Assembly (NCBI RefSeq): GCF_001192835.1
Contig: NZ_DF968183.1
Location: 186,001 to 250,000 of the forward strand
Direction: 5' to 3'
DNA from: Lentimicrobium saccharophilum
GTDB lineage: Bacteria > Bacteroidota > Bacteroidia > Bacteroidales > Lentimicrobiaceae
Length of the DNA: 64,000 bases
Both the position numbers and the translations under genes were made by a program. Of the stretch, positions 34,135 through 43,750 are shown one piece after another. The notes under the pieces were generated by a model. It saw only the letters and a list, made by a program, of their open reading frames with translations, was not told the DNA's origin and ran no database searches. Numbering within the stretch: the stretch's first letter is position 1; the number at the start of each line of letters is the position of its first letter.

Positions 34135-35499
34135 TTATTTCCTGATCTTACCCCTTTTCATGGAAAAGAAAGTGCCTGGAATACAGAGCAATGCAAATAC
34201 AACAAAAGCGTATCTGATACTGGTCATAAGTCCTGCAGTGTTTTCAAGGCCTGCGCCTTTATTCCCCATGATCAGTGCGAACATCATCAGGCTGATGCCC
34301 ATGCTCATGGTTTGACCGGTCAGGCGCATGGTGCCCAGCGTAGCAGAAGCAATACCATAATGTGAAGGATTTACCGAACTCATTACAGCATTGGTGTTGG
34401 GTGAAGAAAAAAGGGCAAAACCCAGCCCAAGTATTACCTGAAGCAAAATGATAAAGGTGATGCTGCTGCCGGGATTGAGAAATGAAAATGCGCCCAGTCC
34501 GATTACTGTAAGCCCCATGCCTGAAGAGGCAAGCACATATGGTTCCAGGCGGTCGCTGAGTTTGCCTGCCACAGGTGAAAGCAGCGTCATCATCACCGGT
34601 TGGGCCATAAGAATCAATCCTGTTTTTTCTGGTGAAAGCCCTTTGATTTGCTGCAGGTAAAAGCTTAGCAGGAATACAAGAGCGAAAGTCGCACTGTAAT
34701 TGATAAAAGCGGCGAGGTTGGAGAAAATAAAAACCTGATTACCACTGAATGAGCTTATCTGCAGCAGCGGATCGGGTGCTTTCTTTTCGATTACTGCAAA
34801 AAGCCATAATCCAGCGATGCCGCATAAAAGAAATATAAGACCCTGCAATCCGGGCATTTTTGGGAAACCATAGATGATAAGGGCCAGGCTGAGTCCATAG
34901 ATCATGCTTCCTGAAAGATCAAATGTGCCCGATACAGATAATTTACGGTCATTCTCAAGTTTTGTTGCTGCGATCGGAATTACGATGGTCGCCAGCAATC
35001 CGATCAGTGCAAAAATGCTTCTCCATCCCAGCAGGGAGGTCATCAGTCCGCCAAGCGTAGGACCAAGGCTTAGTCCTAAGTATACCGAAGCAACATTGAT
35101 GCCCAGTACTTTACCTCTTTCCTCCCTGGGAAAGGAGGAAGTGAGAATGGCAATGGCTGTGGCATAAATCATTGCGCCCCCGGCGCCGTTAAAAAAACGC
35201 GAAATTATCAGCAATAACTCAGAGCCGGCCAGGGCCGATGCAAAAGCGGTAATTGCGAAAAAAACAATTCCAAGCATAAATATTTTTTTTCTGCCAAATT
35301 TGTCAGAAAGCCGGCCAAAGGGGAGAAGAAAGACAGCTGCTGAAAGCAGGTAGGATGTGGTAACCCAGCCAAGTCCGATAGTGTCCATCCCCAGGTCTTT
35401 CCCCATTGCAGGCAACGCGATGTTAATGGCGGAGCCCATGAATGGCGTCAGAAATGAAGCCAGGGTTGTAACAAACAATATGGAACGGCGGGCGCTCAT
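34135..35499 (-). CDS. MFS transporter, DHA2/EmrB-like drug exporter
   Basis: A 454-residue major facilitator protein. The loop 2-3 signature is GRLSDKFGRKKIFM, the helix 4-5 segment GGAMIYATAIAILTSSFPREERGK and the motif C-type LGPTLGGLMTSLLGWR are typical of proton-driven drug exporters of the DHA2 group. About 14 transmembrane helices can be drawn. It probably exports toxic compounds; the specificity is unknown. It lies next to, but 39 bases from, the NAD(P)-binding gene and on the same strand. Confidence 0.9.
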   Translation of the reverse strand: MSARRSILFVTTLASFLTPFMGSAINIALPAMGKDLGMDTIGLGWVTTSYLLSAAVFLLPFGRLSDKFGRKKIFMLGIVFFAITAFASALAGSELLLIISRFFNGAGGAMIYATAIAILTSSFPREERGKVLGINVASVYLGLSLGPTLGGLMTSLLGWRSIFALIGLLATIVIPIAATKLENDRKLSVSGTFDLSGSMIYGLSLALIIYGFPKMPGLQGLIFLLCGIAGLWLFAVIEKKAPDPLLQISSFSGNQVFIFSNLAAFINYSATFALVFLLSFYLQQIKGLSPEKTGLILMAQPVMMTLLSPVAGKLSDRLEPYVLASSGMGLTVIGLGAFSFLNPGSSITFIILLQVILGLGFALFSSPNTNAVMSSVNPSHYGIASATLGTMRLTGQTMSMGISLMMFALIMGNKGAGLENTAGLMTSIRYAFVVFALLCIPGTFFSMKRGKIRK

Positions 35500-35659: not shown

Positions 35660-36046
35660 ATGAGTTATTATTTTTCGACAATAATGGATTGTTCCGTTGA
35701 GGAAGCGGTTGAGAAGGTCACAGCTAAGCTGAAGGAATATGGTTTCGGGATCATCACGCAGGTGAATGTTCAGGAAACCCTTAAAGAAAAGATCGGAGTT
35801 GAATTCAGGAAATACCGCATTCTTGGGGCATGTAATCCGGCCTATGCCCACCGCGCTTTATCAGCCGAGAACAGGATTGGCCTGTTGCTGCCATGCAATG
35901 TAATTGTTTATGAAAGGGAAGATGGCAACACTGAAGTTGCGGCCATAAACCCTAAAATCAGCATGGAAAAGGTTGGTAATAAAGAGCTGTCTGATTTTTC
36001 GTGTGAAGTCACCGAAATTATGGAAAAAGTAATCAAGGCCATGTAG
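35660..36046 (+). CDS. DUF302 domain protein
   Basis: A 128-residue cytoplasmic protein. The DUF302 pattern is visible as EEAVEKVTAKLKEYGFGIITQVNVQETLKEKIG, then YRILGACNPAYAHRAL and a LLLPCNVIVYERE strand. The family has a beta-alpha fold and no proven biochemical role; related domains are near thiol and cytochrome genes. It stands alone, convergent with the conserved gene downstream, with only two bases between the stops. Confidence 0.88.
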   Translation: MSYYFSTIMDCSVEEAVEKVTAKLKEYGFGIITQVNVQETLKEKIGVEFRKYRILGACNPAYAHRALSAENRIGLLLPCNVIVYEREDGNTEVAAINPKISMEKVGNKELSDFSCEVTEIMEKVIKAM

Positions 36047-36048
36047 GT

Positions 36049-37464
36049 TCAATCGGTGTAACCAAAGAGCTTTTTACTTTTAATGGACTCTGCCACATAA
36101 ACGGGGACGAGTTTCTCCCAGGAGGAATCTTTGTTCTGGATTCTTTCAAGTACCATAGGGGAAAATATGGAAAGATGTTTTTCGTTGATATCTTCAATGT
36201 CAAGGATTTTTCGGGCAGAAATCAGATGCCTGTATAGGTAGGCTGAATCCTCAGGGAGGTTTATATCTCCGGAATGTCTGATTTTCCCGCTTTCTTCGTC
36301 AATGGCCGGATAAACGTACATCTTCATGTTATCTGGAAAAAGTTTACCAAAGGCCTCAAGCATTCCCCCTTTCAGATTGGTATAATAGGTTTTGTCAAAA
36401 ACTTTTTCCAGTGTATCAACACCTATGACTATTCTTAGTTTATTGATCCTGAATCCGGAGAAATATGCGACAAGTTTATAGAATTCCCTGAATCCGGAGA
36501 CCATAACATTTTGTCCCATGCCATTGAGCAGGTCGACGCGGTCGAGGAAATCTCTTTCATCTATATTATCAACTTCCTGCGATAGCAGGTTGTGCAATGT
36601 AATTTCGCAGAAGGAGAGGGTTGTCTTCTTGTCGTAATCTTCATCGCGTTTAAAGATAGCGTAACTTGATTTCAGGATATCAATACCTGCATAAGTGATG
36701 GGCCGGAAACTTCCTCTGAAAGCAAGGACATTTTTTTTATAGAGCATATCTGCCGGTTCCTGCACCATCCCGTACCTGTCGAACATAATGGCGCTGGTCA
36801 TACCATTCTTTACCAATTGAACGGCAAGCAGGCGGTTGTCGACATATGCCAACTGGGGGCCGTTCATCCTTATCATGGTAATGTCAAGGCGGTCAGGGGA
36901 AAGGTTGTCCATAAGCGATTGCAGAAAACTATTCGGCCTGTCATGGTGAAAGTAACAGGCGTAGATCAGGTTTACGCCAACTATGCCCAGCGTGTTCTGC
37001 TGCAGCAGGTTATCTCTTTCATGCAACTCCACATGAATGATCACTTCATTGGGTTCGTCCTCCTGCTTCAGTTGGAAACGGCAACCTATCCAGCCATGGC
37101 TGATATTGTCTTTCCGGTAATTGATCGTTGAAACAGTATCCGCAAAGGCAAAAAATCGTGTAGGCTTTTCTCTTTTTCCCTGCAGCACTCCGACCAGTTG
37201 ATCATACTCGCACCTGAGCATTTCCTCCAGCCGCTGGCATGAAACATAGCGTTTGCTGACCTGCTGATTGCTGTATAATACATCGCTGTATTGCTTATCG
37301 TAGGCGGAGATGGTTTTCGCTATGGTTCCGCTTGCGCCGCCGGCCTGAAAAAATGCCCTTGAAACTTCCTGGCCGCCTCCGATTTCAGCAAATACCCCAT
37401 AAGTCGACTGGTCGAGGTTTAAGGTCAGCGCTTTCAGGCCGGTGCTCAGAACTTGTCTTTCCAT
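36049..37464 (-). CDS. Conserved protein of unknown function, downstream of the flavin-riboswitch receptor
   Basis: A 471-residue soluble protein without signal peptide. It begins with STGLKALTLNLDQSTYGVFAEIGGGQEVSRAFFQAGGASGT, a block that I recognise from a conserved family in Bacteroidota and other bacteria that is often labelled nicotinate-nucleotide adenylyltransferase or TonB-dependent receptor in databases. Neither name is supported: no HxGH nucleotidyltransferase motif and no beta-barrel pattern are visible. It is 37 bases downstream of the TonB receptor and probably in the same transcript, hence possibly under the FMN riboswitch. The function is unknown. Confidence 0.75.
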   Translation of the reverse strand: MERQVLSTGLKALTLNLDQSTYGVFAEIGGGQEVSRAFFQAGGASGTIAKTISAYDKQYSDVLYSNQQVSKRYVSCQRLEEMLRCEYDQLVGVLQGKREKPTRFFAFADTVSTINYRKDNISHGWIGCRFQLKQEDEPNEVIIHVELHERDNLLQQNTLGIVGVNLIYACYFHHDRPNSFLQSLMDNLSPDRLDITMIRMNGPQLAYVDNRLLAVQLVKNGMTSAIMFDRYGMVQEPADMLYKKNVLAFRGSFRPITYAGIDILKSSYAIFKRDEDYDKKTTLSFCEITLHNLLSQEVDNIDERDFLDRVDLLNGMGQNVMVSGFREFYKLVAYFSGFRINKLRIVIGVDTLEKVFDKTYYTNLKGGMLEAFGKLFPDNMKMYVYPAIDEESGKIRHSGDINLPEDSAYLYRHLISARKILDIEDINEKHLSIFSPMVLERIQNKDSSWEKLVPVYVAESIKSKKLFGYTD

Positions 37465-37501: not shown

Positions 37502-40072
37502 TTAAAACGAAATTTTCATCGATAAGTTAAACGTTCTGCCCTGAGACCAGAATCCCCTGAATGAATCAATATCATGGGTGATTCCATCTTCACCTCGCAT
37601 GATGGCCTCCTTATCCAGCAGATTATAACAACTTACCGAAGCAATGGTTTTCAGGCCTGCAATTTTAAAACCATAGTTTACAAACAGGTCGGTAATGCTG
37701 TAATCGGGTATACGGTAGGGCTGCCTCCGGTCATCCGGGTTGTTACGGCCAGCCGGATCAAATTCCGCATATAATCGTCCGTGATAGAGCCAGTTAAAGT
37801 TAAGCGTTAGATCAGGAAGCAGTATCAGCTCTCCATAAATACCAGCCTGAAATTGCGGCGCGTCGCCAACTTTCAGATCTTTTGCATAAACCTCTGTGTA
37901 ATCGATAAGCACCTGATTGTCATTGTATAATTCAGCCTGAACGTCGTTTTTCCAGCGCCAGTCTCCGAGCGACAGAAACGAACCAAGCATAAGGTTGCGC
38001 GATAGTTTGGCTGTTCCTTCAAATTCCAATCCTTTGTGCAAGGCGTCAAGACCCCTGATCAGCGCCCTTGTCTGGGTGTTGTTTTCAAGTTGAATATTTT
38101 CGCGGCTCAGCAATGATTTATCTTTCCATAGGGTGTAATAGGCATTGAATTTCAGGTTGACGTTGCCCCTGCCGAAATTATAGCCGGCTTCAAAAGCTTC
38201 GATGACTTCATTGCCAAGGTCCTGTACTACTGCATTGCTGAAGTTGGCAAAAACAAATTTGAAATATGGCGCCTTGGAATAATAGCCTGCGTTCAGGTAG
38301 AAATTGTGGTGATTGTCAATGCTGTAATCCAATCCGGCTTTCAGGTCATATCCTGCTTTTGAAACCAGTTCGCTTTCAGTGTTGCCGATGTAATTGATCC
38401 GGTCAGCACGTCTGAACCAGGTATTTGAAACAGTACCGGCTGCAAACGCGTTCACTTTGCCGATCCGGTATTCTGCCTGCCCGAAGTAACTTACAACATC
38501 CACCCGGGCATCGTTATCAACATTGATGATGTCGCCTACACCTTTGATCTGATTCCTGCCACCGATCCCGGCCAAAGACCATGCGTACTGATCAACCCAG
38601 AAATTTCCTCCCAGCAGATTGCTGATCTCTTCCCTGAGGTTTGATTTGAAATATCGCGAATGAATACCGGTAATGATTTTAAAATTCCCGTTCACCTCAT
38701 GGTTGAGGGTTGAAAGGAGCCCGTACCATACATGACTGGCCCTGTAATTGGTAAGGATAATTTTTGAAAACCCCTTAACATATTCACCTCCTGCCAGCTG
38801 AACCGAATCGCTGTGCGTGGTATTTTGACGGTAAACGGCTTCCCAGTCAATCTGATTGTTTTTACGGAAGCCAGATGCCCCTTCGCTCATAAAAGATTCA
38901 GAAAACTTTCCGCCTCCATCGCCGAATGAAAGATATGCAGAACTTGCCAGCAGGCTCTTCTCATTGATATTCCAATAATGATTCAGCGCGAGCTGAGGTT
39001 TATGATAAAAGTTTTCGGACAGGCTTTCAATTTTTCCGTTTAAGATTCCCCAGTTTGGATTATAGCGATTACCGAATTGATCGTACTGTTGTTTGGTAAG
39101 TCCGTAAGTCCGTTGTCCATGCCTTTCGGGAGCACCCATTCCCGTAAAAACCAGCAGATGCTCCGGATTTATTTGCTTGCTGATGGAGAGAAACCAGGCC
39201 CAGGCATCAACATGGGTAGCATCAACATATCCGGGCCCGGTTGTGCGGGATCCGAGAAATGTAAGTGCATAACCTTTTTCTGTTTTTCCGGTCGAAAAAC
39301 TCAGAATAGTTTTTCTGTTGCCAAAATCGGAAATGGCATGGCTTACCGATCCGCCTTTTGATGCTTCTGTGGTTTTTGTGATGATGTTAATGGTGCCACC
39401 CACCGAGTTTAATGCAACCCGTGAGGCTCCAAGACCGCGCTGAACCTGGATGCTTTGTGTCGCATCGCCCAGTCCTGCCCAGTTCGACCAGTAAACCAGT
39501 CCGTTTTCAACGCTACTGACGGGTACGCCGTTTAACAGCAATCCGAGATTCTCCTGCTGAAAACCCCTGATACTGATACGTGCATCGCCATTTCCGCCAC
39601 CAAGTTTGGTGGCATATACACCCGGTGTCATTTTCATGATTTCAGGGTATTCCTGCCCGCCGATTTCCCGTTGTATCAAAGCTGTTTTTATGGTGCTGAT
39701 GGCAACGGGCGTGTTGCGTTCCCGGGCATGCGATGAAATTATGCTGACCTCGTCAAGTCCGATCATATCGGGAGTCAGTTGGATATTCAAAAACTCATTT
39801 CTATCCCCGACCATAACCCCAATGCTGAAAGGCCGGTAAGAAAGGTGAGTAAATGTTAAAATCTGATTGCCTTTTTCGATCAGAAGACTGAAATAACCGT
39901 TTTGATCAGTCACTGTGCCTTTGTTTTGCCGACCAGTCTGAATTGAGACCTGTTCTATTCCTGTCCCGCTGGTATAGTCGGTGACCCTGCCTTTTAATGC
40001 AATCTGGGCGGTTGATGTCAGTTGTGAAAAGCTGATGAGAAGCGTGATAAGAGAGGTGATGAGTTGTTTCAT
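37502..40072 (-). CDS. TonB-dependent outer-membrane receptor under an FMN riboswitch
   Basis: An 856-residue outer-membrane receptor. A signal peptide (residues 1-22, ending STAQ) is followed by a carboxypeptidase D regulatory-like domain (about 25-115, GRVTDYTSGTGIEQV to LSYRPFS), the plug (about 120-245, with MKMTPGVYATKLGGGNGDARISIRGFQ and GGTINIITKT), and a 22-strand type barrel ending in Phe (FNLSMKISF). Such receptors import ligands with TonB energy. The leader carries a canonical FMN aptamer, so expression should fall when flavin is abundant, and the ligand is most simply riboflavin, FMN or a precursor. A TonB box is not obvious. The ligand is an inference. Confidence 0.93.
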   Translation of the reverse strand: MKQLITSLITLLISFSQLTSTAQIALKGRVTDYTSGTGIEQVSIQTGRQNKGTVTDQNGYFSLLIEKGNQILTFTHLSYRPFSIGVMVGDRNEFLNIQLTPDMIGLDEVSIISSHARERNTPVAISTIKTALIQREIGGQEYPEIMKMTPGVYATKLGGGNGDARISIRGFQQENLGLLLNGVPVSSVENGLVYWSNWAGLGDATQSIQVQRGLGASRVALNSVGGTINIITKTTEASKGGSVSHAISDFGNRKTILSFSTGKTEKGYALTFLGSRTTGPGYVDATHVDAWAWFLSISKQINPEHLLVFTGMGAPERHGQRTYGLTKQQYDQFGNRYNPNWGILNGKIESLSENFYHKPQLALNHYWNINEKSLLASSAYLSFGDGGGKFSESFMSEGASGFRKNNQIDWEAVYRQNTTHSDSVQLAGGEYVKGFSKIILTNYRASHVWYGLLSTLNHEVNGNFKIITGIHSRYFKSNLREEISNLLGGNFWVDQYAWSLAGIGGRNQIKGVGDIINVDNDARVDVVSYFGQAEYRIGKVNAFAAGTVSNTWFRRADRINYIGNTESELVSKAGYDLKAGLDYSIDNHHNFYLNAGYYSKAPYFKFVFANFSNAVVQDLGNEVIEAFEAGYNFGRGNVNLKFNAYYTLWKDKSLLSRENIQLENNTQTRALIRGLDALHKGLEFEGTAKLSRNLMLGSFLSLGDWRWKNDVQAELYNDNQVLIDYTEVYAKDLKVGDAPQFQAGIYGELILLPDLTLNFNWLYHGRLYAEFDPAGRNNPDDRRQPYRIPDYSITDLFVNYGFKIAGLKTIASVSCYNLLDKEAIMRGEDGITHDIDSFRGFWSQGRTFNLSMKISF

Positions 40073-40139
40073 GGTATTCTGTTGTTTGACCTGTTTTCTT
40101 TTCGCAATCCGGATAACAATACCCGAATAACAAATACTA

Positions 40140-40190
40140 CAGGGCAGAATACCTTTATACTACCGGCAGGCATATCTATGCCTCCGGCAG
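40140..40190 (-). promoter_or_regulatory. Expression platform of the FMN riboswitch
   Basis: A long hairpin (40160-40190; 13 pairs with one bulge and one wobble, loop of four) stands just after the aptamer. Further downstream CTGCCCTG (minus strand, 40140-40147) is the exact complement of CAGGGCAG at the 5' edge of the aptamer (40310-40317). No T run follows the hairpin. This looks like a mutually exclusive pairing that could control either elongation or access to the leader. Confidence 0.5.
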
Positions 40191-40199
40191 CAATCTCAG

Positions 40200-40323
40200 A
40201 TTCTTCTTCCATCCAGACTTTACTGTCGGTACCGGAATTTAACCGGTTCAGTCATTCAGCATATTTGCTGTTTGAGTCGCGGACTCTACCGCCGATCGGG
40301 AATTTCACCCTGCCCTGAAGAAT
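40200..40323 (-). ncRNA. FMN riboswitch (RFN element)
   Basis: A 124-base aptamer on the minus strand. It has the hallmark stretches AGGGCAGGGTGAAATTCCC, CGGCGGTAGAGTCCGCGA, then AACCGGTTAAATTCCGGTAC, CGACAGTAAAGTCTGGATGG and the closing AGAAG. The P1 stem is ATTCTTC paired with GAAGAAT. The order and sequence of all conserved joining regions match the RFN consensus. It binds FMN and normally turns off flavin synthesis or transport genes. The next gene is a TonB-dependent receptor, 128 bases downstream. Confidence 0.96.
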
Positions 40324-40330
40324 TGTGCGG

Positions 40331-40360
40331 CAAAAGTAAAGATATTTTTTTCGGATGCAA
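40331..40360 (-). promoter_or_regulatory. Consensus promoter of the riboswitch-receptor transcript
   Basis: On the minus strand a -33 TTG (40358-40360) and a -7 TACTTTTG (40331-40338) stand 19 bases apart. The RNA would start a few bases before the P1 stem of the FMN aptamer. Confidence 0.8.
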
Positions 40361-40813
40361 GCAAAAAATCAAATATGCTTCAACGGTAAAAGCCCAACAT
40401 AATCTGGTGACCCTGATTATGCTATAAATTATCCTTGCCATTTATAAGTGACCATGACATGGGGGTTAAACCTTGGGATATGCTGTTAATTTATTGATAT
40501 ACAGTTATTAAATTAGGTGTAAAGGATCAAATTATTTAAGCATTGTCAAAATTAATAGCTTTAGAAGAATTGACCGGAATCGGAATATATTTACAAATTT
40601 GTTCCCGATATATACATTATATCTTGGTTACACATATTAAGTGGCTGATAAATAGTAAGATATTTTACTAAATTAACTATATTTTCATTATCTTTATGAT
40701 GAAATATACTGAAACAATAATCCGGTGTTGTTGTTGTAATTACTTGAGTTATTTGCGCTGATCCTATGTCAGGATCAACCGGATATAATATAAATATTTG
40801 ATTGTTAAAGCTG
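40361..40813. other. AT-rich intergenic region upstream of the hybrid kinase
   Basis: About 450 bases without a credible gene. It contains two perfect 7-bp hairpins, CATAATC/GATTATG (40398-40404 and 40415-40421) and TGATCCT/AGGATCA (40759-40765 and 40771-40777). The second lies in the kinase leader, 37 bases before the ATG. A near-consensus -7 element TATCTTTA is at 40689-40696. Confidence 0.4.
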
Positions 40814-43750
40814 ATGAAAAAAACTGGTAAAGGAATAACTTCGGCGTCAGAACGGGAAGGCAGGCCTTCTTTATCAGTAAAGCCAGATGAAGCAGATCAT
40901 GGATTTTCACGTGAATTTGTCACAGCGCTTATCAGTGGTTATCCTGAAGCAATTGTAATTACCGACCAGTACTTTAATATACTTTTTCATAGTAAAAAAG
41001 TCTCTGAAATAATATCGAAATCAGAAATTCAACTTATTGGCCGGCCTGTCTTCGATACTTTACTGAAGGTTCCGGCTTCAGACTTACCGGCTCTCAAGGA
41101 AAAACTGAATGATATCGGGGGGCGTGAAATTTCTATGATCATTAAACTACCTGATAACAATACTTATGCAGAAGTGCTTATTTCAACATCGGAGGATTTG
41201 TATTCAGGTTATTATACTTTTAAAATCAGGCTGCAGCAAACCGATCAACCTGAAAACAGGGCTCCTTCAGGAAATAGTTTAAATGAGACAGAGGTCAGTG
41301 ATCATGAAGTAAGTATGGCCGTCGGCCAAAAGAAAATAGACAGCGGAGTTCTGTTTAACATAATTGAAGCGCTTACACATCCCTTTTATCTGATTGATAT
41401 ATCTTCAGGGAAGATAGTTATCAGCAATTCTGCCGCCAGAGACTTTGAGCTTTCAGTGAAAAGTTCAGGATGCAATATGCGTCATAAACCGTCATTTTGT
41501 GCCGGAGATGCTTCAGATTGTATCCATGCTGCCGTCAGGTCAGCTGGCTCCCCGGTAAGAGTAGAGCATACCTACGAAAAACTGAACGGGGAAAAAGTGA
41601 TTCATGAAGTCTTTGGCTATCCGATGCCGGATGATAAAGGAAATCCCTGGTTGGTTATTCAATATTCCATTGATATCACTGAAAGAATAAAAAATGAATC
41701 TGCGCTGAATGAATATCGCGTTATCACTGAGAATCTGCTTAAAAACATTCCTGGCATGGCATTTCGCTGCCTGAACGACCGGCGCTGGACTATGGAATAT
41801 GTCAGTCCCGGCTGTAAACGGCTGCTGGGCTACAGAGCTGATGAACTTACCGGGAAAGGACAGATAGAGTTCAACAGCCTTATCCTTCCCAATGACAGGG
41901 AGAGGGTGTGGGCTGAGATACAGAACGCCTTGAAACATCATAATTTTTATAGAATAGATTATCATGTTGTTACCCGTAATGGCCGGGTGAAATGGGTGCA
42001 GGAAAGCGGGCGGGCGATATACGACAGAAACGGTATCCCTGTCCGCATCGAAGGGCTGATTATGGATATTACCAACCTGAAGACCTCTGAAGAAAAACTT
42101 CAAAGAGAACTGGCTATTAATCAGGTAATTGCTTCCGCTGGTCTTGATTTGTTGCGGGGTCATACCAGGCTCCCTCAGCTTGCCCGGATGATCCAATCTC
42201 ACCTGGCCAGATTTACCGGAAGCAAATTGTCTTATCTTTTAACTCATGATAAAAGTGGAAAGTTCAGGATATACTGTCATGCTGGCGGGGATGATTCTTC
42301 GGAAGGTTTACTGGTTACGCCTGAAAGGCTTAAAGAAAGCATTTTCGGGCAGTTTATGGATATTACAGAGCCAGAGATCAGGAACGATATGAACTATAAG
42401 GGAGCGCTCCCATGTATTGCCCGTCAATCGATTGACATATCAAGGTTGCTCAGCGTCCCGGCTGTGATTGACAAGCACTCGGACGCAATGATTATTCTTG
42501 CAAACAGTGACACAGCATACAGTCATGAATCAATAGCTGTTGTGCAGCGTTTCATTAACCTTTTTGCACTTGCATCGTTCAGGATGCAGGCCGAAGAAGC
42601 CCTTCGTGAAGCAAAACTTAAAGCTGAAGAGTCGGATCGCCTCAAGAGCCTTTTTCTTTCTAATATGTCGCACGACCTGCGCACCCCCATGAATGCCATT
42701 GTCGGATTTGCAGAAATGCTTCAGGATGCTGAACTCGGGCGCGATGAAAAAGACCGGTTCCTGGATGCCATCATCAAAAGTGGCGACAGTCTGCTTCATC
42801 TGGTCAATGATATCATTGATATTTCTAAAATAGAAGCCGGACAGATGCAACTGGTGTTTTCTGATTGCGATGTCAATGCCTTGATGGATGAAATTGAACT
42901 TACCTTCAGGCAGGAACTTGACCGGCAGGGTAAAACACATGTCATGTTTTATATTCAGAAGGGAATTCCGGATACTTCATTTAAGGTGCATACTGATGCC
43001 ATCCGAATAAAGCAGGTGCTCTCGAATCTTATCGGTAATGCAATTAAGTTTACCGATGAAGGTTTTATTGAAACAGGTTACCGGATTGAAAGCGGTAAAC
43101 TGCTTTTTTATGTCCGCGATTCCGGTATCGGGATCCCCGAAGAGTATCAGAAACTTGTGTTTGAACGCTTCGGACAGGTAAAAGAAACTGTTTCCCGCAA
43201 CATCAGCGGTACAGGACTTGGATTGACTATTTCGAAGAATCTGGTTGAAATGCTGGGTGGAAAGATATGGCTGGATTCCTTTCCTGACGAAGGTTCAACG
43301 TTTTGGTTTACATTGCCCTTGAAAAAGATTCAGGCAAATACGAAATCTCAGGCAATGAAAACCTCCGGACCTCACCGGCCGGATTTGAGTGATAAGTGCA
43401 TTCTTGTTGTTGAGGATGTAGATACCAATTATTTTTACATCAGCTCGTTGCTTGAAAAAATGAATGCCAGGGTAATTCGTGCCGCCAATGGCCGGCGGGC
43501 AGTCGAGATGTGCAAAGCCGATTCATCCATCAACCTGGTGCTGATGGATATTGAGTTGCCGGTGCTGAACGGGTATGAAGCCACGCGTGAAATCAAGAAA
43601 CACAGACCAGGTCTGCCCGTGATTGCCCAGACGGCTTTTGCAATGGCAGGAGAGCGGGAGCGGAGCGAAGAAGCCGGTTGTGACGAGTATCTGGCCAAAC
43701 CTATACGCAAGGATGATCTGATTGAAACCATCTCCAGATTTATCTCATGA
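40814..43750 (+). CDS. PAS/GAF hybrid sensor histidine kinase with receiver
   Basis: A 978-residue cytoplasmic hybrid kinase without transmembrane helices. Three PAS-type domains come first (about 35-145, 185-295 and 300-430; the third has WTMEYVSPGCKRLLGYRADEL), then a GAF-like domain (about 435-600), the HisKA dimerisation domain with the phospho-His in MSHDLRTPMN, the ATPase domain with NLIGNAIKFTDEG, DSGIGIPEE and GTGLGLTIS, and a receiver (about 860-978) with phospho-Asp in VLMDIELP. It senses a soluble cue and passes phosphate to its own receiver or another protein. The ATG at 40814 is chosen over a TTG at 40802. Confidence 0.9.
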   Translation: MKKTGKGITSASEREGRPSLSVKPDEADHGFSREFVTALISGYPEAIVITDQYFNILFHSKKVSEIISKSEIQLIGRPVFDTLLKVPASDLPALKEKLNDIGGREISMIIKLPDNNTYAEVLISTSEDLYSGYYTFKIRLQQTDQPENRAPSGNSLNETEVSDHEVSMAVGQKKIDSGVLFNIIEALTHPFYLIDISSGKIVISNSAARDFELSVKSSGCNMRHKPSFCAGDASDCIHAAVRSAGSPVRVEHTYEKLNGEKVIHEVFGYPMPDDKGNPWLVIQYSIDITERIKNESALNEYRVITENLLKNIPGMAFRCLNDRRWTMEYVSPGCKRLLGYRADELTGKGQIEFNSLILPNDRERVWAEIQNALKHHNFYRIDYHVVTRNGRVKWVQESGRAIYDRNGIPVRIEGLIMDITNLKTSEEKLQRELAINQVIASAGLDLLRGHTRLPQLARMIQSHLARFTGSKLSYLLTHDKSGKFRIYCHAGGDDSSEGLLVTPERLKESIFGQFMDITEPEIRNDMNYKGALPCIARQSIDISRLLSVPAVIDKHSDAMIILANSDTAYSHESIAVVQRFINLFALASFRMQAEEALREAKLKAEESDRLKSLFLSNMSHDLRTPMNAIVGFAEMLQDAELGRDEKDRFLDAIIKSGDSLLHLVNDIIDISKIEAGQMQLVFSDCDVNALMDEIELTFRQELDRQGKTHVMFYIQKGIPDTSFKVHTDAIRIKQVLSNLIGNAIKFTDEGFIETGYRIESGKLLFYVRDSGIGIPEEYQKLVFERFGQVKETVSRNISGTGLGLTISKNLVEMLGGKIWLDSFPDEGSTFWFTLPLKKIQANTKSQAMKTSGPHRPDLSDKCILVVEDVDTNYFYISSLLEKMNARVIRAANGRRAVEMCKADSSINLVLMDIELPVLNGYEATREIKKHRPGLPVIAQTAFAMAGERERSEEAGCDEYLAKPIRKDDLIETISRFIS

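Follow-up and report, generated by a model that had tools for sequence, protein, structure and literature searches.

What does a TonB-dependent receptor (TBDR) import when the element that precedes it is a riboswitch for flavin mononucleotide (FMN)? The question is raised by a stretch of 64,000 nucleotides from Lentimicrobium saccharophilum (assembly GCF_001192835.1, contig NZ_DF968183.1, positions 186,001 to 250,000), referred to here as the window, for which an earlier note had suggested active uptake of riboflavin, FMN or a flavin precursor across the outer membrane. That suggestion is supported by the riboswitch itself, by the grouping of riboswitch-linked receptors in a single clade, and by the absence of the riboflavin synthesis enzymes RibH and RibB. 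Very probably, the receptor is repressed by FMN, depends on TonB and brings flavin across the outer membrane of a riboflavin auxotroph, predicted regulation and predicted auxotrophy both tying it to riboflavin.

The regulatory element is well defined. A complete RFN aptamer had been placed at positions 40200-40323 in the earlier note, which proposed a scan of the upstream region with RF00050; that scan returns a match at 40326-40197 on the reverse strand, at most 3 bases off at each end, covering model positions 1-138 of 138 and scoring 115.1 bits (E 4e-26), far over the gathering score of 66.2. It is the sole match in the whole 4.51 Mb genome. The promoter claimed just upstream also holds, in the form of a TAnnTTTG-type box, TACTTTTG, which we take to be the −7 promoter box of Bacteroidota; among the 18 genus loci, 17 have a box of this type no more than about 25 nt from the aptamer, the expectation from their own upstream sequence being 0.24. 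Likewise borne out is the statement that the riboswitch leads straight into a receptor of 856 residues, as the receptor ATG stands 124 nt downstream of the aptamer with no gene between them. Three Pfam models match the protein above cut-off (CarbopepD_reg_2, CarboxypepD_reg and TonB Plug, the last, PF07715, at 46 bits with a cut-off of 23.9), and its length and C-terminal phenylalanine, judged by eye, are presumably compatible with a 22-strand outer-membrane barrel.

Receptor models for other substrates fit poorly. Scores under the NCBIfam cut-offs were obtained with the SusC/RagA family (TIGR04056, 59.5 versus 368.25 bits) and the B12 receptor (TIGR01779, 23.9 versus 599.7 bits), a second B12-receptor model gave 19.6 bits with a cut-off of 836, and siderophore-receptor models were far under their cut-offs as well. 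The nearest named relatives are receptors of the Bacteroidales metagenome-assembled genome (MAG) UBA5833 (94%) and of a Lentimicrobium sp. MAG (91%). The low model scores bear on the idea that the true cargo is not a flavin but, say, an iron complex, with FMN acting as a redox or iron signal. The plug region does resemble that of siderophore receptors, as in many TBDR plugs, and riboflavin and iron metabolism interact, according to the available part of PMC6041382. Yet besides the low siderophore and B12 scores, a non-flavin substrate would give no reason for three observations set out below, namely the absence of RibH and RibB, the exchange of receptor and rib operon, and the decay of the receptor in a prototroph, and we consider it improbable.

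How regularly do riboswitch and receptor occur together? The riboswitch is present in 18 of the 19 genomes of the genus, and in relatives no alternative gene separates it from the receptor, which is the first open reading frame (ORF) of at least 90 aa after the aptamer in 18/18 genus loci, two of them cut by a contig end. In the nineteenth genome (G411), which is 72% complete, the riboswitch is missing and no such receptor was seen. Among 22 named receptor loci, RF00050 was found in all eight of L075-L082, the last being the locus of G623, a prototroph, and in none of the 14 loci L083-L096, two of which (L086, L092) have little or no upstream DNA. Larger samples were searched with stricter filters. 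In the phylum sample 29 of 395 genomes had a match, 28 of them over the cut-off, and the first gene was by eye ribB or ribD in 27 of 28 loci, the window being the twenty-eighth; in the class sample the window genome was the single positive among 395. The order sample gave 65 of 295 genomes, 64 over the cut-off. Outside the genus, 60 order loci (a set without the contig-edge cases G670 and G692) begin with ribD (27), ribB (11), a TBDR (21, one a remnant) or another outer-membrane protein (1), and from these first genes it follows that, outer-membrane proteins aside, the riboswitch is devoted to riboflavin genes. When 32 genomes (30 lacking RibH and without a match, G692 and G411) were searched less strictly, the one addition was the contig-edge piece of G692, at 28.5 bits.

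Riboflavin synthesis has been lost from these genomes, at least at two steps. Lumazine synthase RibH (PF00885), present in 239 of 295 order genomes, was found in none of the 19 genomes of the genus, with controls positive in 14/14. DHBP (3,4-dihydroxy-2-butanone 4-phosphate) synthase RibB (PF00926) was found in 0 of 40 genomes that belong to the genus or carry a riboswitch-linked outer-membrane protein, G623 being set apart; G623 and 10/10 controls with riboswitch-led rib genes have it. Flavokinase (PF01687) occurs in all 51 genomes searched, including 19/19 of the genus. Because RibH and RibB are absent and flavokinase is present, the genus is without two synthesis enzymes yet able to use riboflavin, and the Lentimicrobium genome seems, from its gene content, unable to make vitamin B2. 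Since both enzymes are missing, only the last synthesis step could remain, and the receptor might then import a late precursor, such as dimethyl-ribityllumazine, to be finished by riboflavin synthase RibE. Precursor uptake would suit FMN riboswitch control equally well, and the enzymes searched for were RibH, RibB and flavokinase; with RibH absent in 19/19, RibB in 40/40, and riboflavin's own kinase kept in 51/51, we think this very improbable indeed.

The earlier note had asked whether genomes without the pathway keep the receptor. They do: RibB is missing in 40/40 genomes excluding G623, and of the 25 genomes in the order sample that have a riboswitch-TBDR, 24 are without RibH, versus 32 of 270 others (p 8e-19, uncorrected for kinship). 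At the level of families, at least one genome without RibH is found in 14/14 that have an intact riboswitch-TBDR, versus 18 of 106 others (p 7e-10, with family counts compiled by hand and the 120-family total taken from numbering).

G623 is the sole exception to the association, a prototroph that has a riboswitch-controlled rib operon and, in addition, a second riboswitch. Behind the second riboswitch are receptor pieces only, in three frames, corresponding to window residues 12-184, 180-287 and 824-856 with the middle missing; another receptor and then a pyrophosphatase follow this remnant. In a second case, two genomes of one genus, G486 and G587, have in common an upstream gene (82% nucleotide identity), the riboswitch (91%) and, farther downstream, a second TBDR (89%). 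The interval from the riboswitch to that TBDR is filled by ribD, ribE, ribBA and ribH in G587 (ORFs named by eye, RibH and RibB confirmed by profile search), and by the receptor in G486. Rib operon and receptor have thus been exchanged under one riboswitch.

The receptors themselves form a coherent group. Whether they do was a check proposed in the earlier note. A tree of 79 receptors was built by a quick maximum-likelihood method, with the partial genus rows L169 and L171 and the G623 remnant omitted; in it, 35 of the 36 receptors that stand first behind an FMN riboswitch fall in one clade (SH-aLRT 100), the thirty-sixth lying in the sister clade. Two further rows in the main clade are those of G692, with a riboswitch piece at the contig start, and G656, whose contig ends within the gene.

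How might FMN control the receptor? The 5′ strand of the aptamer, CAGGGCAGGGTG, can form a helix of 12 nt, including G-U pairs, with the platform segment TATTCTGCCCTG (p 0.005, 200 platform shuffles), and GGTATTCTG, which overlaps the latter, could instead pair with CAGAATACC just before the start codon. Over the 11 of 18 genus leaders in which both segments are visible, a selection that favours the result, 93.2% of cells are paired in the first (ON) helix, against no more than 59.0% in slid positions, with 0 doubly changed pairs; for the second (OFF, or sequestor) helix the share is 80.8%, against no more than 49.5% in slid positions, with 4 doubly changed cells, equalled in 9 of 500 shuffles, and a pair-type count not above shuffles (478/500). 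A twelfth aligned leader, L169, was omitted, its second segment being absent. In a wider set, with 200 mononucleotide shuffles per leader, an aptamer-platform helix was found at p ≤0.05 in 15 of 37 TBDR leaders and in 3 of 20 listed rib leaders (of 38), and some leaders of other families close by eye with a hairpin and a T run. We propose that the ON and OFF helices are mutually exclusive, which would support the importer reading, and FMN-OFF control of the receptor gene is likely.

From these elements we infer a sequence of events that runs from FMN binding and OFF logic through TonB coupling to transport and substrate. At low FMN, the aptamer 5′ strand would pair with the leader segment CUGCCCUG, leaving the start codon free so that receptor is made. 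With enough FMN, the aptamer would be held in shape, the overlapping segment would pair with the bases before the AUG, and translation would stop. The TonB-powered receptor would carry riboflavin, perhaps also FMN or flavin adenine dinucleotide (FAD), into the periplasm, some inner-membrane carrier would hand riboflavin on, and RibF would convert it to FMN and FAD.

Operon partners in other families raise the question of which flavin is taken up. The receptor is often followed there by a second outer-membrane protein, either of the PF25183 type (L118, L121, L124) or another TBDR. Seven riboswitch-TBDR loci from five families encode, behind the receptor, a type I phosphodiesterase/nucleotide pyrophosphatase (Pfam was run on the L127 and L148 enzymes only); that of L127 scores 272 bits with ENPP1 and 248 bits with a bacterial nucleotide pyrophosphatase, and its start looks by eye like a lipoprotein signal. 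In L105 a nucleoside-proton symporter comes next. The pyrophosphatase and symporter fit FAD/FMN salvage, and one narrower form of the importer proposal would be that the receptor takes in mainly FMN or FAD shed by other cells, with cleavage to riboflavin on the cell surface or within the periplasm. Riboflavin could, by its size, pass porins more easily than FAD, a point that also speaks for a receptor devoted to the nucleotides. Lentimicrobium loci, however, have none of these partners (second outer-membrane protein, pyrophosphatase or symporter) beside the receptor, the substrate of the enzyme is putative, and one of the seven pyrophosphatase loci is the G623 remnant locus; this narrower form is possible, though the odds are against it. 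We would give even chances to a broader scenario for Bacteroidales auxotrophs, in which dedicated TonB flavin uptake replaced synthesis under the same riboswitch, and in which several families added a second outer-membrane protein and an envelope pyrophosphatase cutting FAD to FMN and came to live on the flavin nucleotides of their neighbours.

Two side observations concern these other families. In G556, which is without RibH and RibB, the riboswitch is followed by the start of a different outer-membrane protein (L120, 2255-2758); this protein, truncated where the contig stops, has CarboxypepD domains and clusters with the second proteins of other riboswitch-TBDR operons. The same gene of about 260 aa lies upstream of the riboswitch in L101, L121, L127, L142, L146, L148, L149, L132 and L153, accompanying it ahead of the receptor and ahead of rib genes alike.

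Several points count against a flavin importer as proposed here, and they fall into three groups. As to the pathway, the enzymes searched for were three, RibH, RibB and flavokinase. Of the 56 order genomes lacking RibH (those remaining after the 239 with it), 29 are without the riboswitch and also without a clade receptor, in a search that scored the best 14 candidates per genome; some of the 29 have more distant receptors, and other routes must exist, or the assemblies must be incomplete. As to the protein, the barrel is without any Pfam model match, and when a profile built from 29 relatives was compared with solved receptors, the matches were confined to the N-terminal and plug part. The exceptional tree row, L101, sits in the sister clade (99) beside riboswitch-less receptors of Marinifilum and Prolixibacter, and that clade also takes in receptors of the RibH-bearing G526 and G623. 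As to mechanism, the p value of 0.05 for leader helices was reached in just those 15 TBDR leaders, and for the inner-membrane carrier, genes of the PnuC family (PF04973), considered as PnuX, are uninformative, since 49 of 57 genomes have them regardless of RibH.

Comparison with known systems places the receptor in a familiar design with a different cofactor. In the available part of PMC6977713, BtuB and OMthi of Bacteroidota are likewise vitamin TBDRs under a riboswitch for that vitamin's cofactor, and PMC2211319, as far as available, has btuB homologues behind B12 and thiamin pyrophosphate (TPP) riboswitches; here the riboswitch would sense FMN, the probable substrate is a flavin, and B12 models score far under cut-off. 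PqqU, a TBDR for pyrroloquinoline quinone (PQQ; PMC12124388, in part), is the nearest analogue, scavenging a redox cofactor at the outer membrane, often for non-makers; it differs in its cofactor, in having no FMN riboswitch and in its measured binding, the substrate of the present receptor being deduced. RibU, RibM/PnuX, ImpX, RibXY, RibZ and RibV share FMN-riboswitch-controlled riboflavin uptake (PMC4418817, in the portion available) and differ in not being outer-membrane receptors. The same aptamer stands before ribDEBAH or ribB, even in the same locus in G486 and G587, the difference being that uptake would be controlled here instead of synthesis.

That a flavin-regulated receptor had not been described as an importer was a further claim of the earlier note, and it agrees with the literature matches listed, which cover few subscription journals and, in their available parts, include no FMN-riboswitch TBDR or outer-membrane flavin receptor. 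The accessible main text of PMC4418817, a riboswitch-led search for riboflavin carriers from 2015, does not contain outer membrane, TonB or Bacteroidetes; the available part of a 2019 gut survey (PMC6593275) gives RibU, PnuX, ImpX, RibN, RfnT, RibZ and RibXY as B2 carriers; and the accessible text of PMC3766115 lacks the terms TonB and outer membrane. The substrate class therefore appears new for a vitamin TBDR, and the riboswitch would not have been known to control such a receptor. If the importer proposal is true, vitamin B2 joins the vitamins taken up through TonB-dependent receptors, a mostly uncultured set of Bacteroidales can be predicted to rely on neighbouring cells for flavin, and the riboswitch-receptor pair can serve as a metagenome marker of that dependence. 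G486 and G587, with one riboswitch over synthesis or uptake, would offer a natural experiment on how regulation follows pathway loss.

Table. Features of the receptor locus, in window positions
Feature	Position	Strand	Remark
FMN riboswitch aptamer (RFN element, RF00050)	40197..40326	-	full-length covariance-model match
Promoter box TACTTTTG, TAnnTTTG type	40331..40338	-	ends 4 nt upstream of aptamer
Aptamer 5′ strand CAGGGCAGGGTG	40306..40317	-	able to pair with expression platform
Platform segment TATTCTGCCCTG, proposed ON (anti-sequestor) strand	40140..40151	-	partner of aptamer CAGGGCAGGGTG
GGTATTCTG, 5′ arm of proposed start-codon sequestor	40145..40153	-	overlaps ON strand
CAGAATACC, 3′ arm of proposed sequestor	40073..40081	-	immediately 5′ of ATG; potential partner of GGTATTCTG
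TBDR, 856 aa, proposed outer-membrane flavin importer	37502..40072	-	next gene after riboswitch
Protein of 471 aa, family unassigned	36049..37464	-	37 nt downstream of receptor; possibly co-transcribed
DUF302 protein	35660..36046	+	Pfam 96.9 bits; conserved opposite-strand neighbour
Major facilitator superfamily (MFS) transporter (DHA2/EmrB-like), candidate inner-membrane step	34135..35499	-	domain match

Could neighbouring genes supply further parts of the importer? The 471-aa protein has no match in Pfam or NCBIfam and weak ones in the PDB (E 0.05 or worse); half of the genus loci (9 of 18) have its gene 3′ of the receptor, as do none of the examined loci of other families, and with no family and this patchy occurrence its role as an importer part is left open. 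The DUF302 gene borders the receptor locus 13 times within the genus and twice in another family (f172). The MFS gene is found in 15 of 18 genus loci, the remaining three ending at contig ends; it too is left open as the inner-membrane carrier, since the opposite-strand DUF302 gene intervenes within the same stretch in 12 of the 15 and the best solved relatives of the protein are efflux proteins.

Elsewhere in the genome, the PnuC copy adjoins by eye a NadR-like ORF, and no Rfam match over gathering was found in the 11 kb around it. The flavokinase family has at least two matches in 17 of 19 genus genomes; the second, diverged gene of the window genome (L176 6953-7894, G000:C2 about 920952-921893) scores 83 bits, and it was set aside as a salvage enzyme because it sits, by eye, among hydrogenase-like and Rex-like ORFs. 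On the other side of the riboswitch, a hybrid histidine kinase with PAS domains (40802-43750) points away from the receptor locus, and related histidine kinases occupy the same place in at least nine genus loci. Farther off, the window holds a small SRP RNA of Bacteroidales type (107.3 bits, 12549-12442, reverse strand) and a tRNA gene (11336-11264, reverse strand).

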